DNA from: Thermoguttaceae bacterium
GTDB taxonomy: Bacteria; Planctomycetota; Planctomycetia; Pirellulales; Thermoguttaceae
Assembly: GCA_025060325.1 (NCBI GenBank)
Contig: JANXBW010000001.1
Span: 186,001 to 250,000, forward strand
Length of the DNA stretch: 64,000 nucleotides
Reading direction: 5' to 3'
Shown piece after piece: positions 16,783-23,045 of the stretch. The position numbers were made by a program, and so were the translations under genes. Each line of letters opens with the position of its first letter. The first letter of the stretch is position 1. A model generated the notes under the pieces. It saw only the letters and a list, made by a program, of their open reading frames with translations, did not search any database and had not been told where the DNA came from.

Positions 16783-17787
16783 ATGCGGCCGGCGAACTGT
16801 CAGCAATCTTTTCGGTCTTGGCGACCTGGTGTTCGGCGTTGCCTCGGCCTGCGCCCCCGAGAGCGGATTGCGCTTGCCTTCGTTCTCCTTGCCCTTTTGT
16901 GGAGTGGAAGCACCTGTTCGATCCCACTTGCCGAGGCGGCGTACGTCAGGGACCTCATCCGCCTGGACGGGTCGATCAACACCATTGCGGTTGAGCTACG
17001 GGCAGGGGTTTGGCGTGTGGGAGTAGGCGGAGCACTTGAGCCAGCCGGGGACACGGCTTTCTCCCGAAGAGTTACAAACGAAGTAGTCATCGGCATATTC
17101 CGGGCCACGGCGGTTAACGGTGTTAGCGACTTTCAGGGCGAGCTGACCGGATATTTCGGATTTTGGATTGACTCGGCCTCCTATTCTTTCACCGCGCAAG
17201 TAGGGCGCATCCTCGGCACGAAGATTGCCGCGGATTATCCCCTCGGCGCTTTAAGACGTTCGGACCCGTTTGGCATACTGGGTGGGCTAGCGGCGATTGC
17301 GGTCTTTTTCGATCCGATTCCGGACTTGACAGGGCCTGGTACGAGCATCCCGGTCGACGTTTCGGCTGCCACTGACGGGCAGATTTTTGCGTCTTTTGGC
17401 TTCCAGCCGGCAGCAGATCGGGACCTCGGCGGGGCGACAGGGCCGGCGGGGGCGGCCGCGTGGTGGCGCCTAGCGGCGGGCGACCGGCTAGAAACGTGGG
17501 GCGGACTTAACCTCACCGCTGCCGGCCCCGAATATGATAAGCTCGTCTTCCCTGGGGTATCGAACCCGCTTACGGGGCAACTAAATTCTCTCGGCTTTCG
17601 GTTTGGCTTTGTTCCTGCGACAGGGGGGCCTTGGCCGTGGGGGGGCGCGGGCACTTTAGAACTCCGGGTGGTGCCCGAGCCGCCTACGGGAGGTCTTCTG
17701 GCCTGTTTGATTCTGTCCGGGTTAGGCGTGGTCGCTTCGCGCAGGTCTCTTTTTCGAAATCCCCTAAAAGCGCGTACGCGAAAGTAG
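16783..17787 (+). CDS. PEP-CTERM-type secreted protein
   Basis: Signal-like N-terminus; C-terminus VVPEPPTGGLLACLILSGLGVVASRRSLFR (PEP motif, TM, basic tail). Confidence 0.65.
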   Translation: MRPANCQQSFRSWRPGVRRCLGLRPRERIALAFVLLALLWSGSTCSIPLAEAAYVRDLIRLDGSINTIAVELRAGVWRVGVGGALEPAGDTAFSRRVTNEVVIGIFRATAVNGVSDFQGELTGYFGFWIDSASYSFTAQVGRILGTKIAADYPLGALRRSDPFGILGGLAAIAVFFDPIPDLTGPGTSIPVDVSAATDGQIFASFGFQPAADRDLGGATGPAGAAAWWRLAAGDRLETWGGLNLTAAGPEYDKLVFPGVSNPLTGQLNSLGFRFGFVPATGGPWPWGGAGTLELRVVPEPPTGGLLACLILSGLGVVASRRSLFRNPLKARTRK

Positions 17788-18634: not shown

Positions 18635-19933
18635 ATGCGGAAAACGCTTACTGCCTTATTCAAATCCCCCGTTGTTTTAGGGGCGCTAATGGCAGCCGGA
18701 TGGTACACGCTCATACTGTGGGGACCGCTTAACCATCCCACCATCCGGGCATTGTTTACGGAACATCCCGTTGAACATGTCAGCGCGATCCTTTTTTTCG
18801 TGGGCATAGGGTCTTTGCTCCTCCGGACAGCCGGACTGTTACGCGATTGGCGGGTCATTCGTCAGTGGCCCGGCGGTTGGAACTTTTCTGCTGACGATCG
18901 GCAAATTGGCGTTGACGAATTCATTGACAAACTTTCCCGCTTCGCCGATAAGCTATCGGGTTCAAGGCTCGGTCATCGGATGCGTGAACTCGCCCGGATG
19001 TTGGAAACCAATCCGGAAGGACCCGACCTGGATAGCCACCTGCGCATACTTTCTGAGAAGGATGCGGCAGCAGCCCAGGCGCGGTCGACTCTTGTTCGCA
19101 TGTTCATTTGGGCTATTCCAATCCTTGGGTTTCTAGGCACAGTTATAGGCATCGCGATGGCCCTCGGTCGACTGGCTCCGCAACAACTGGAGGAAAGCTT
19201 GCCGGTGGTGATGGCGGCGTTGACTGTCGCCTTCAACACAACAATTCTTGCACTTGCCCTTTGCCTCATTCTGTATTTCGGGCTTTACGTGGTGGAACGG
19301 GCGGAGGCCGGAATACTTGGTCGCGTTGACCAAATCGCCGAGGAGGTGCTTGCTGCCTTTGCGCGAAGCCGCCCCTCCATAAGCAAACAGTCCTCAGGGG
19401 GAACCACCCCGTCCACTGGTGACCAATTCCTTGCGCTCCTCCAGGCGCCGCTGGCAACCTGGGAACTTGCGGTTCAAGAATTCGTCTCCTCCGTCCGACA
19501 GCTAACCACCGAGCTGTCAACTGCGCTTGGGCAAGCGCTGGCAAAGGCGTTGGAGGAGGTTCTCCACGGGCATGCGGCTCGCCTGCTGGCTGTGGAGGAA
19601 AAGGCGCTTGCCCAACATCAGGAGCACCTGGACGAGCTTTACCGCCATTATCACAAACGACTTGAGCGGGTGCTGGAACTGGAGCGATCCGTTGAGCAGC
19701 GGACCGAGATGCTCCTTAAGGCTCTGGAAGGTGCAGAAACGCTGCGAACACTCCAGGAAGCACTCCAGCGTAATTTGGCCATCCTGGCCACCTCGCGACA
19801 ATTTGAACAAATGCTAATGAGTCTAACAGCAGCCATCCACCTGCTGACCACACGCATCGAGGCCCCGGTGGGAACCCCTAGCGCGCCGCAAACGCTGCCG
19901 GTCCATGTGCACGGGCTTCGGCAAGCGGGTTAG
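18635..19933 (+). CDS. MotA/TolQ/ExbB-type proton channel subunit with long C-terminal coiled-coil tail
   Basis: IPILGFLGTVIGIAMALG and AALTVAFNTTILALALCLILYFGLYVVERAE match TolQ/ExbB TM2/TM3 signatures; about 170 aa predicted helical tail. Confidence 0.8.
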   Translation: MRKTLTALFKSPVVLGALMAAGWYTLILWGPLNHPTIRALFTEHPVEHVSAILFFVGIGSLLLRTAGLLRDWRVIRQWPGGWNFSADDRQIGVDEFIDKLSRFADKLSGSRLGHRMRELARMLETNPEGPDLDSHLRILSEKDAAAAQARSTLVRMFIWAIPILGFLGTVIGIAMALGRLAPQQLEESLPVVMAALTVAFNTTILALALCLILYFGLYVVERAEAGILGRVDQIAEEVLAAFARSRPSISKQSSGGTTPSTGDQFLALLQAPLATWELAVQEFVSSVRQLTTELSTALGQALAKALEEVLHGHAARLLAVEEKALAQHQEHLDELYRHYHKRLERVLELERSVEQRTEMLLKALEGAETLRTLQEALQRNLAILATSRQFEQMLMSLTAAIHLLTTRIEAPVGTPSAPQTLPVHVHGLRQAG

Positions 19934-19949
19934 ATTGTAAACGTAACCT

Positions 19950-21704
19950 ATGGCCCAATTAGCCCGCTCTAAAGGGAAGACCGGCTCGGCCTTGGGGTTT
20001 GCTCCCCCAAGTATCCCCTTTTTTCCGTTCGTCAGTGTGCTCATCTCCACCATGGGGATCCTTATTCTGCTCATAGTGGTGATTGGGCAGCGCGCTCGCA
20101 TAGCTGCCAGCCGACAAGCCGAGGCGGCACGCCAGAGGACAAAAGAGGAATTAACCTCCTCCCTTGAGCTTCTCGATTGGGAACTTGAGATGCTCCGCCA
20201 GACAACTGGCGCGGGGCAACAAAAGGTGCAGGACCTTCGGCTAGCATTAGGGCACCTGGAGGACCATGCCCGTCGACTGAGAACCCAGCGCGATCAGCTA
20301 ATCGCTTTTCTCCGCGAAGGCGACAACCGGCCGGAGGCGCAAACTTCCGTCGCGCAGCTGCAAAGTCAGATCTCAGCCGTCAACAAACAAATCGAGGCCG
20401 TTACCCACGAATTAGAAGCCCTCCGGCGAAAACAGGGTCGGCGTTTCTTTTCGATTGTCCCCTACGCCGGTCCGTACGGCTCGGCCCGCTGGCCGATCTA
20501 CATTGAGTGCCGACGGGACGCGATCGTCATTCAACCAGAAGGGATAGCACTCACCCCGGAGGATTTTCAGCCAGATCTCGGGCCGGCCAATCCGCTGGAG
20601 GTGGCCTTACGTGCGATTCGCGAGTATTGGAGTCGAAACAACCCCGGCCAAGGCGACCCTTATCCGCTTCTGCTCGTTCGGCCCAGCGGCATCGGAGCCT
20701 ACTATGTTGCCCGGGCGGCGCTTGACACCTGGACCGGAGAGTTCGGTTACGAGCTTATTGACGAAGATTGGGAAATCGTCTACCCGCCACCAAACGGGGA
20801 GTTAGCACGCCAGCTGGCCATGGCGGTCGAAGAGGCAAGAGCCAAGGCCCGCCTGCTGGCGGCCGTAAGCCCGCGGCGCGTGGCGGCGGCTCCCAAGCGT
20901 TTCATTCTGTCGCCGGACCGCGGGGGCCTTATTCCCGAAGCGGGTGCTCCCCTCGAGATTCCCGCGATCCAACCTTCGTATCGTAGACAAGCGGATTCTC
21001 AAGACTCCCTCTCAACACAGGCAAAAGCTCCGCACAGCGGCGCCGCCGGCACTGACGGACAACTTCCGGCCCCTGGGCGCCGGGCTTCCGGCGCAATTGG
21101 AAGATACCCCCCGGATGGGGACATACTGGCCGGCCAGTCGGGCAGTGGGGAAATGCAACCGCCGAGTAGCGCGTCATCTGACCTTCAGAACTGGCCACGC
21201 TTCGGCAGCCAAATTCCCGGGGAAACATCGGCGCAATCCGACCGAGAAGCGGTCAGCTCGGCCACTTCAACAGGCCCAGGGTCGGCCGCAAGCGAGGGAC
21301 TCAGGAGCACCGCGGCAGGACAAATGGGAACTTCCTTGCAAAGTTTAGCGCAGTTGCGGGGTCAAGATTGGGCCGTACCAGGGGCCGTCCGGCTTCTGGT
21401 GCCCCTTACCCGTCCGGTGCGGCTTAAGTGTAGGCCTGACTCGCTCCTCATCGTTCCCGAAGCCGGTCTCGGGGCTCCCATTGCCATTCCCTGGGAAGAT
21501 CCGCCGGAAAAGACCGTCGATAACCTGGTTCGACAGATTTGGGACTATGTGGCGACGTGGGGGCCGGCTGGACGAGGTATGGCTTGGCGCCCAATCCTGC
21601 GAGTCGAAGTTGCTCCGGGGGCCGAGGGACGATTTCGAGACCTGAAAACCCTTCTCGAAGGAAGTGGACTTGTTGTGGAACAAGCCGACGTGCCAGGGAA
21701 TTAA
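19950..21704 (+). CDS. Single-TM coiled-coil protein with two ExbD-like repeats (putative stator partner lacking the TM Asp)
   Basis: Starts 16 bp after the channel gene; TM FVSVLISTMGILILLIVVIGQRA; coiled coil; two copies of a CRxDxxxIxPE domain. Confidence 0.7.
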   Translation: MAQLARSKGKTGSALGFAPPSIPFFPFVSVLISTMGILILLIVVIGQRARIAASRQAEAARQRTKEELTSSLELLDWELEMLRQTTGAGQQKVQDLRLALGHLEDHARRLRTQRDQLIAFLREGDNRPEAQTSVAQLQSQISAVNKQIEAVTHELEALRRKQGRRFFSIVPYAGPYGSARWPIYIECRRDAIVIQPEGIALTPEDFQPDLGPANPLEVALRAIREYWSRNNPGQGDPYPLLLVRPSGIGAYYVARAALDTWTGEFGYELIDEDWEIVYPPPNGELARQLAMAVEEARAKARLLAAVSPRRVAAAPKRFILSPDRGGLIPEAGAPLEIPAIQPSYRRQADSQDSLSTQAKAPHSGAAGTDGQLPAPGRRASGAIGRYPPDGDILAGQSGSGEMQPPSSASSDLQNWPRFGSQIPGETSAQSDREAVSSATSTGPGSAASEGLRSTAAGQMGTSLQSLAQLRGQDWAVPGAVRLLVPLTRPVRLKCRPDSLLIVPEAGLGAPIAIPWEDPPEKTVDNLVRQIWDYVATWGPAGRGMAWRPILRVEVAPGAEGRFRDLKTLLEGSGLVVEQADVPGN

Positions 21705-22025
21705 CGCATTTTTCGCAGATTTCTCAGAATACCAGGAGTGAGGTTAGCATCTGAACTGAGAGTATGCCCGCAGCTGGTCGTCCGTTCCCGGCGGGCCTGC
21801 GGGCAAGATCGGGCAAGCCTGAGGGTGCATCACTGGAGGGGAAACTAAGTCCCTTTGTCGGACATCGGGAGAGGACGTGTGGGCAGCACTCGCTAACCGG
21901 GGGAACCGAAAAAGCCACTTGCCTGATCCTCTCACACTGCACCCACCCCCGGATTTTGCCGGTCCACTGGGGCGAGGAACGGCCAACCATGTAATCCACG
22001 GACTCATCTCGAGCGGAGCCAGCCT

Positions 22026-23045
22026 GTGAGTAGCGGTAGCTGGGAAATATCCGAAGGCCTTCCTGGACAGGATTCATTCCTCGATATCGTTGCGAATATC
22101 GTGGGAATCCTCATCATCTTAGGAATTGTGGTCGGGATTAGGGCGCAGCGAGCTCCGGTTGCGCCCTCCCAGCTGGACCCAGACCTTCCGCGCCTCCATC
22201 AAGTTGCCTCAGAGAAGGCCCGCGAGGCTGCCAAACTTCGCCAAGAAATCGCCCGTCTCGAGGCGACTTATCAAAGTTTGGAACAAGAAAAGGCATTCCA
22301 GCAAAAGATTCGCGACCGGCTAGCGCTAGAGGTGGCTGCCCTCCAAAAGATGATTGCGATTCAAAGCGATCGTGCGGCCACTCTATCCGATCAAGCTTGG
22401 CAGCTACAACTTGAGCTTCAAGAGCGGCTCGGGTACCTTCGGGAATTGGAGGCTCAAAAATCGCAATTACAACAGGTTGTGGACAACGTCACGCAGATCA
22501 CACACTATCCGGCCCCAGTAGCCAAGTTTGTTGATACCAAAGAGGTGCACTTTCAGCTGCAGAGCAATCGCGTGGCACACATCCCCCTTGACCGGCTTAT
22601 CGAGCAGCTGAAGGAGCGGGCCAAACTCGAAGCCTCGCGGCTCCTAAGCCAAAGTGAATGGACGGACGTCGTTGGACCGGAAGGAGGCTTCCAACTCCGC
22701 TTTATCCTCCGGCGTTACGACGTACCAATCAACATCCCCGGTCAAGGAAGGGGGACAGCCAGTTACGTACGGGTCGAACATTGGGTCTTGCTGCCCACCT
22801 CCCCGCAATTAGGGGAGCCTTTGGAAAAGGCCATTCAACCGGACTCTCAGTTCTGGCGGACGGTCAACCAGTATAATCCCAAGGAGTACACAATTACCCT
22901 GTGGGTTTACCCGGAAAGCTTCGAGGGATATCGCCAACTTCGGGACCGGCTTCACGCTGCCGGCTACACCTGCGCCGCCCGGCCACTTCCTGCAGGAGTG
23001 CCGATTTCTGGCTCGCCGCGGGGAAGTCGCTCTGCCGCCCAGTAG
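22026..23045 (+). CDS. Single-TM coiled-coil ExbD/MotB-like protein with TM Asp (putative stator partner)
   Basis: GTG start; TM FLDIVANIVGILIILGIVVGIRA with D20; coiled coil; ExbD-like C-terminal segment ITLWVYPESFEGYRQLRDRLHAAGYTC. Confidence 0.7.
   Translation: MSSGSWEISEGLPGQDSFLDIVANIVGILIILGIVVGIRAQRAPVAPSQLDPDLPRLHQVASEKAREAAKLRQEIARLEATYQSLEQEKAFQQKIRDRLALEVAALQKMIAIQSDRAATLSDQAWQLQLELQERLGYLRELEAQKSQLQQVVDNVTQITHYPAPVAKFVDTKEVHFQLQSNRVAHIPLDRLIEQLKERAKLEASRLLSQSEWTDVVGPEGGFQLRFILRRYDVPINIPGQGRGTASYVRVEHWVLLPTSPQLGEPLEKAIQPDSQFWRTVNQYNPKEYTITLWVYPESFEGYRQLRDRLHAAGYTCAARPLPAGVPISGSPRGSRSAAQ

Follow-up and report, generated by a model that had tools for sequence, protein, structure and literature searches.

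A planctomycete channel gene with two unlike single-transmembrane partners, mostly only one of them with the proton-carrying aspartate: a candidate asymmetric proton motor

Loci in which one channel gene adjoins two partner genes have been described before. In the AglRQS gliding motor of Myxococcus xanthus, a single TolQ/MotA-like gene precedes two unlike genes of the TolR/MotB type, with AglQ and AglS both matching PF02472 (PMC3169522) and both carrying the aspartate (Asp) (PMC9389320), and ExbB-ExbD1-ExbD2 loci have been published for Xanthomonas (PMC3551730) and Riemerella (PMC4446302). Here we analyse a trio of genes, called A, B and C, in a 64,000-nucleotide stretch (the window) of the genome of a Thermoguttaceae bacterium (GCA_025060325.1; contig JANXBW010000001.1, positions 186,001 to 250,000). 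The original prediction, made from the letters of the window, had described three same-strand genes encoding an ExbB/TolQ/MotA-type channel and two paralogous single-transmembrane (TM) partners without an OmpA-like motif, and the three frames and their common strand were confirmed (Table 1). Like AglRQS, the trio has one channel gene adjoining two unlike partner genes, A lying upstream and C downstream of B on the same strand at 86 of the 91 loci with more than 600 base pairs (bp) on both sides of B; unlike in AglRQS, neither partner has a family match, and Asp is found in C only. Like the ExbB-ExbD1-ExbD2 loci, it joins one channel to two single-TM partners. We rejected the possession of two partners, first thought unusual, as the novelty of this locus, because AglRQS has been published and the window's own genome contains three loci in which one ExbB is followed by two ExbDs.

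Among the sequences collected, the distinctive trait is that the Asp is kept by one partner only. Profile comparison identifies the TM region of B as homologous to that of C (hhalign probability 92%, E = 8e-7), so the proposed paralogy holds for these regions; it does not extend to the periplasmic domains, which have no detectable mutual resemblance in profile comparison. In C, Asp occupies the proton-carrying position at all 101 collected loci, and the aligned position in B is Ala in 94, Ser in 8, Thr in 3 and Asp in 4 of 109 rows (Ala/Ser/Thr in 105), rows that were not de-duplicated and include paralogues. This asymmetry was missed by the original prediction, which is otherwise partly supported. 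No description of an Asp-less ExbD/TolR partner was found in the literature searched, outside of which most subscription papers and preprints lay.

The rare B proteins with Asp are instructive in their context. An Asp-bearing B (LFSFLD) occurs in two genomes, G025, from the window's order, and G430, to which locus L137 led; in both, A lies apart from B and C, and the pore motif of this A is GFLGTV[IV]HF, not GFLGTVxGI, the HF form being present in 0 of ~103 further A proteins in which the motif was aligned. These changes may represent one evolutionary event. Some of the more distant trios from other planctomycete classes also have Asp in B (L169, L171 and L172). Some genomes that carry the main trio also have a shorter, paralogous one, alike in gene order and Asp asymmetry (L058, L059, L060, L167 and L168); it combines an Asp-less partner of ~270 amino acids with an Asp-bearing partner of ~370 amino acids (C not covered in L060), and its channel has a zinc-ribbon-like segment at the N-terminus in L058-L060. 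At L173, the B profile matched two TM proteins encoded in tandem that have SLSFLDA helices together with vWA-like domains and resemble the published TPH-vWA family.

Protein A is, as judged from its sequence, a channel of the MotA/TolQ/ExbB family, as first proposed: it matches PF01618 with E = 1.2e-9 (38.4 bits against a curated cut-off of 22.9), and so do 25 of 25 relatives. Hydropathy reveals hydrophobic segments at residues 45-70, 152-181 and 188-223, plus a weaker first one. Seven residues of the pore-helix motif (G165, F166, L167, G168, T169, G172 and I173) are invariant in 25 relatives, and so is the pair Thr202-Thr203, which we take to be equivalent to the Thr/Ser ring of ExbB, MotA and ZorA. 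An element in the cytoplasmic tail is also strongly conserved. The trio is probably a motor of this class powered by protons. The loss of Asp from B could suit a static envelope scaffold in which A is no longer an energised channel, but an Asp kept in every C and TM motifs that do not vary in A are difficult to account for if no ions are used, and we regard such a scaffold as very unlikely.

The cytoplasmic tail of A also recalls Zorya ZorAB, in which the channel is likewise tailed, and the PADLOC ZorA2 models match A weakly (2e-10). The trio could on these grounds be a Zorya-like phage-defence motor, with A a relative of ZorA and B and C in place of ZorB, but A scores just 20 bits with the NCBIfam ZorA2 equivalog, for which 700 is the cut-off, and there are two unlike partners, neither with an OmpA-type domain (B and C do not match PF00691, in agreement with the motif's predicted absence, and the OmpA matches of their own genome lie elsewhere). 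Furthermore, no nuclease, helicase or other effector-type neighbour recurs beside the trio at 34 loci, and the trio is near-universal in its class, defence genes being patchy. Zorya identity was rejected on these points, and a Zorya-like role appears extremely unlikely.

C was detected in 39 of 40 relatives. A wider survey recovered it from 100 of 120 near-complete Planctomycetia genomes, with all 30 genomes of the window's order among them; because the number of candidates scored per genome was limited, some absences may be false. In a scan of genome contigs, the best 80 of 519 records came almost throughout from planctomycetes, mostly Pirellulales, with one labelled Nealsonbacteria and one only 'bacterium'. 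The family has so far been seen only in Planctomycetota, which agrees with the suggestion that it is planctomycete-specific, a suggestion qualified by searches that were incomplete outside the phylum. The order of the three frames, whose conservation the original prediction had proposed to survey, is kept across tens of genera, far beyond chance, and consecutive frames share 4-bp overlaps in many relatives; the gap between B and C in the window is 321 bp. A search of the DNA for promoters and terminators was uninformative. Because the trio is near-universal in the class and the window's genome, in an own-genome search, has one full trio of this type, the evidence speaks for a housekeeping role in the envelope and against one in defence. 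Just upstream of the trio (16783-17787) lies a gene for a secreted-type protein with a PEP-CTERM-like sorting signal at its end, an adjacency not kept in relatives.

The window's genome encodes seven PF01618 proteins and eight ExbDs, all eight with Asp, and tandem ExbDs are common across the phylum. Its other contigs hold three ExbB-ExbD-ExbD and two ExbB-ExbD loci (L209-L216); unlike the trio, the former have normal small ExbDs, both with Asp, and B and C are ~2-4 times longer than the ExbDs of this genome and have coiled coils. Several of these loci on the other contigs adjoin TPR-like sequences and resemble published force-transducer loci of the Planctomycetes-Verrucomicrobia-Chlamydiae (PVC) group. 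The PVC vWA force-transducer system shares with the trio a planctomycete distribution and paired unlike partners, and the section consulted describes no Asp-less partner (PMC12204202); no vWA or TPR gene recurs beside the trio at 34 loci. Glt-type neighbours, as would befit AglRQS, were looked for only through the general conserved-neighbour test. The MotAB stator has a channel of the same family and a single-TM, Asp-bearing partner, but the genome has a separate MotA/MotB-like pair elsewhere.

B and C each have, as predicted, a single strong hydrophobic segment followed by a long predicted helix, which in the AlphaFold2 (AF2) model of B (mean predicted local distance difference test, pLDDT, 76) spans TM helix and coil (residues 26-161); the model of C has a mean pLDDT of 86. 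Neither protein matches a Pfam or NCBIfam family above cut-off, so the trio is not an already named family, and their relatives gave only scattered coiled-coil matches in Pfam. PF02472 (ExbD/TolR) was unmatched by B, C or their relatives, an own-genome ExbD search returned 8 ExbDs without B or C among them, and a sequence search of solved structures yielded coiled-coil noise only. The two periplasmic domains of B are repeats of each other (hhalign probability 93%, E = 2.6e-7) with identical strand/helix order in the AF2 model. The ExbD/TolR periplasmic domain has the order bbabab (b, strand; a, helix). In the AF2 models this order is that of both B domains and, with an insert, of C, but neither the fold search nor the profile search reached significance; that these domains are homologous to ExbD is thus a lead rather than a result, as the resemblance is in fold order only.

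Table 1. Features of the trio and related loci (positions in the window unless a locus or contig is given; aa, amino acids)
Feature	Position	Strand	Description and basis
Gene A	18635..19933	+	432 aa; MotA/TolQ/ExbB-type channel; cytoplasmic tail of ~200 residues, mostly helical
A pore-helix motif GFLGTVIGI	19127..19153	+	residues 165-173; conserved columns, motif counts
A Thr202-Thr203	19238..19243	+	last TM helix; invariant columns in 25 relatives
A C-terminal tail element	19742..19864	+	residues ~370-410; consensus LNRNLxALAGAxxFExTVxSLAAAIxLLNARL; near-invariant columns
Gene B	19950..21704	+	584 aa; single-TM partner without proton-carrying Asp
B TM helix IPFFPFVSVLISTMGILILLIVVIGQR	20013..20093	+	residues 22-48; hydropathy; family consensus SLFPFLAVLICTMGALI
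B Ser29	20034..20036	+	aligned to C Asp20; Ala in most relatives; hhalign of B-TM and C-TM
B coiled coil	20094..20432	+	residues 49-161; AF2 helices 26-124, 128-161
B periplasmic domain 1	20442..20804	+	residues 165-285; order bb(b)abab; AF2, pLDDT mostly >90
B disordered linker	20943..21326	+	residues 332-459; Gly/Pro/Ser-rich; AF2 pLDDT <50
B periplasmic domain 2	21342..21701	+	residues 465-584; repeat of domain 1; hhalign, AF2 order
Gene C	22026..23045	+	339 aa; GTG start; single-TM partner with proton-carrying Asp
C TM helix QDSFLDIVANIVGILIILGIVVGIRAQ	22068..22148	+	residues 15-41; hydropathy; AF2 helix 15-41
C Asp20	22083..22085	+	invariant; Asp in 101/101 loci, invariant in 64 relatives
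C coiled coil	22185..22475	+	residues 54-150; AF2
C periplasmic domain	22518..23030	+	bba-(3-strand insert)-bab; AF2, pLDDT mostly >90
Diverged channel A with GFLGTV[IV]HF	L195 8034-9566; L257 frame starting at 1462		unlinked from B/C; genomes with Asp-bearing B
MotA/MotB-like pair	C11:288491; C11:289475		window's genome; second position, OmpA-type MotB-like protein

The lengths of the two coils, measured in residues from the TM glycine to a fixed anchor in the periplasmic domain, cover the ranges 143-239 (B) and 143-223 (C) and are closely correlated over 116 loci (Pearson 0.95, Spearman 0.75). The correlation persists in independent contrasts on a tree of 97 loci (r = 0.89, reached in 0 of 5000 permutations), with the same sign in 56 of 73 non-zero contrasts, and is absent from the control contrasts (B linker and C coil, -0.02; A tail and C coil, 0.08; A tail and B coil, 0.11). 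Since B and C coil lengths track each other, a parallel B:C coiled coil is supported. On balance we therefore favour, with some reserve, a single 5:2-class proton motor made of A, B and C with a heterodimeric B:C axle and a single carrier, and the two-partner motor first predicted is to this extent upheld as an inference from sequence. The stronger proposal of an obligately asymmetric motor (channel pentamer, B:C axle and one proton carrier), fixed across most of the class with at least one lineage gaining the B Asp and the channel-motif His, has in our estimate close to an even chance of being right.

The layout of B (a TM helix, a long disordered linker and an end domain) resembles that of TonB and TolA, and with B lacking Asp and no TonB C-terminal domain (TonB_C) found in the window's genome (G000) despite six other ExbB/MotA-type channels, a C homodimer could form the axle (A5C2) with B as a TonB/TolA-like force transducer docked beside the ring and reaching outward by linker and end domain. 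Such an arrangement seems rather unlikely to us, as the TM of B is homologous to that of C, some B proteins do have Asp at the carrier position, and the coil lengths of B and C co-evolve. Furthermore, the TM of B has no His, while TolA/TonB and the published vWA transducers carry an SHLS motif (PMC12204202).

Several results weigh against the heterodimeric motor that we favour. The similarity of the partners to ExbD/MotB expected at the outset was not significant: profile comparison of B and C with ExbD was null, with 8 and then with 21 planctomycete ExbDs, and Foldseek found no match below E 0.02 for the whole models in the PDB, with TolR (5by4) only at rank 44 (E 0.24) and ribosomal uS11, UvrC/RuvC and other RNase-H-like folds at the top. 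The matching of coil lengths would also fit neighbouring B and C homodimers under a common height constraint. The neighbour survey of 34 loci indicated no output, no family being found beside the trio at more than 4 of them. In a few genomes (G022 and G021), finally, C lies on another contig than A and B, which stay together. This last arrangement, like the retention of B with A nearly everywhere despite the loss of Asp, might point to two interchangeable motors on a shared A: A5C2 would be the active one, while A5B2 would be inactive or have a regulatory role, so that B would serve as a brake or as a dominant-negative subunit; the matched coil lengths and the A-B-C order favour a single complex instead, and we think the brake quite unlikely.

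If B and C do form one axle, the motor might work as follows. A would form a pentameric ring, as its membership in PF01618 and its conserved pore motifs suggest, threaded by one B and one C as a heterodimeric axle that continues outside the membrane as a parallel coiled coil of matched length. C alone would supply the proton-carrying Asp, B filling the second axle position with Ala or Ser, and protons passing the Thr-lined pore of A and the Asp of C would make the axle turn or rock relative to the ring; going by 5:2 models, one carrier in place of two would mean that a turn takes about five protons, not ten. B would add two periplasmic domains that are repeats of each other, with a flexible linker of ~130 residues bearing the outer one, and through the periplasmic domains the movement may reach the cell wall or the outer envelope. 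The near-universal presence of the trio suggests that this would be a housekeeping function in Planctomycetia cells.

To our knowledge, the two axle chains of each solved 5:2 motor are identical, and there are two Asp residues in those motors that are driven through an axle Asp. The trio would thus be an unnamed variant within a known kind of 5:2 proton motor, in which the Asp asymmetry is what sets it apart. Whether both axle Asp are needed for stepping is an open question for 5:2 motors, and an asymmetric motor kept by most of a class would, if true, mean either that a single carrier suffices or that the second chain serves some other purpose; such a motor would also offer a natural test between the 10-step and the 5-step models. 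The lopsided trio could in this way show how such motors turn, and it is a candidate core envelope machine of the planctomycetes, whose envelope biology is poorly known.

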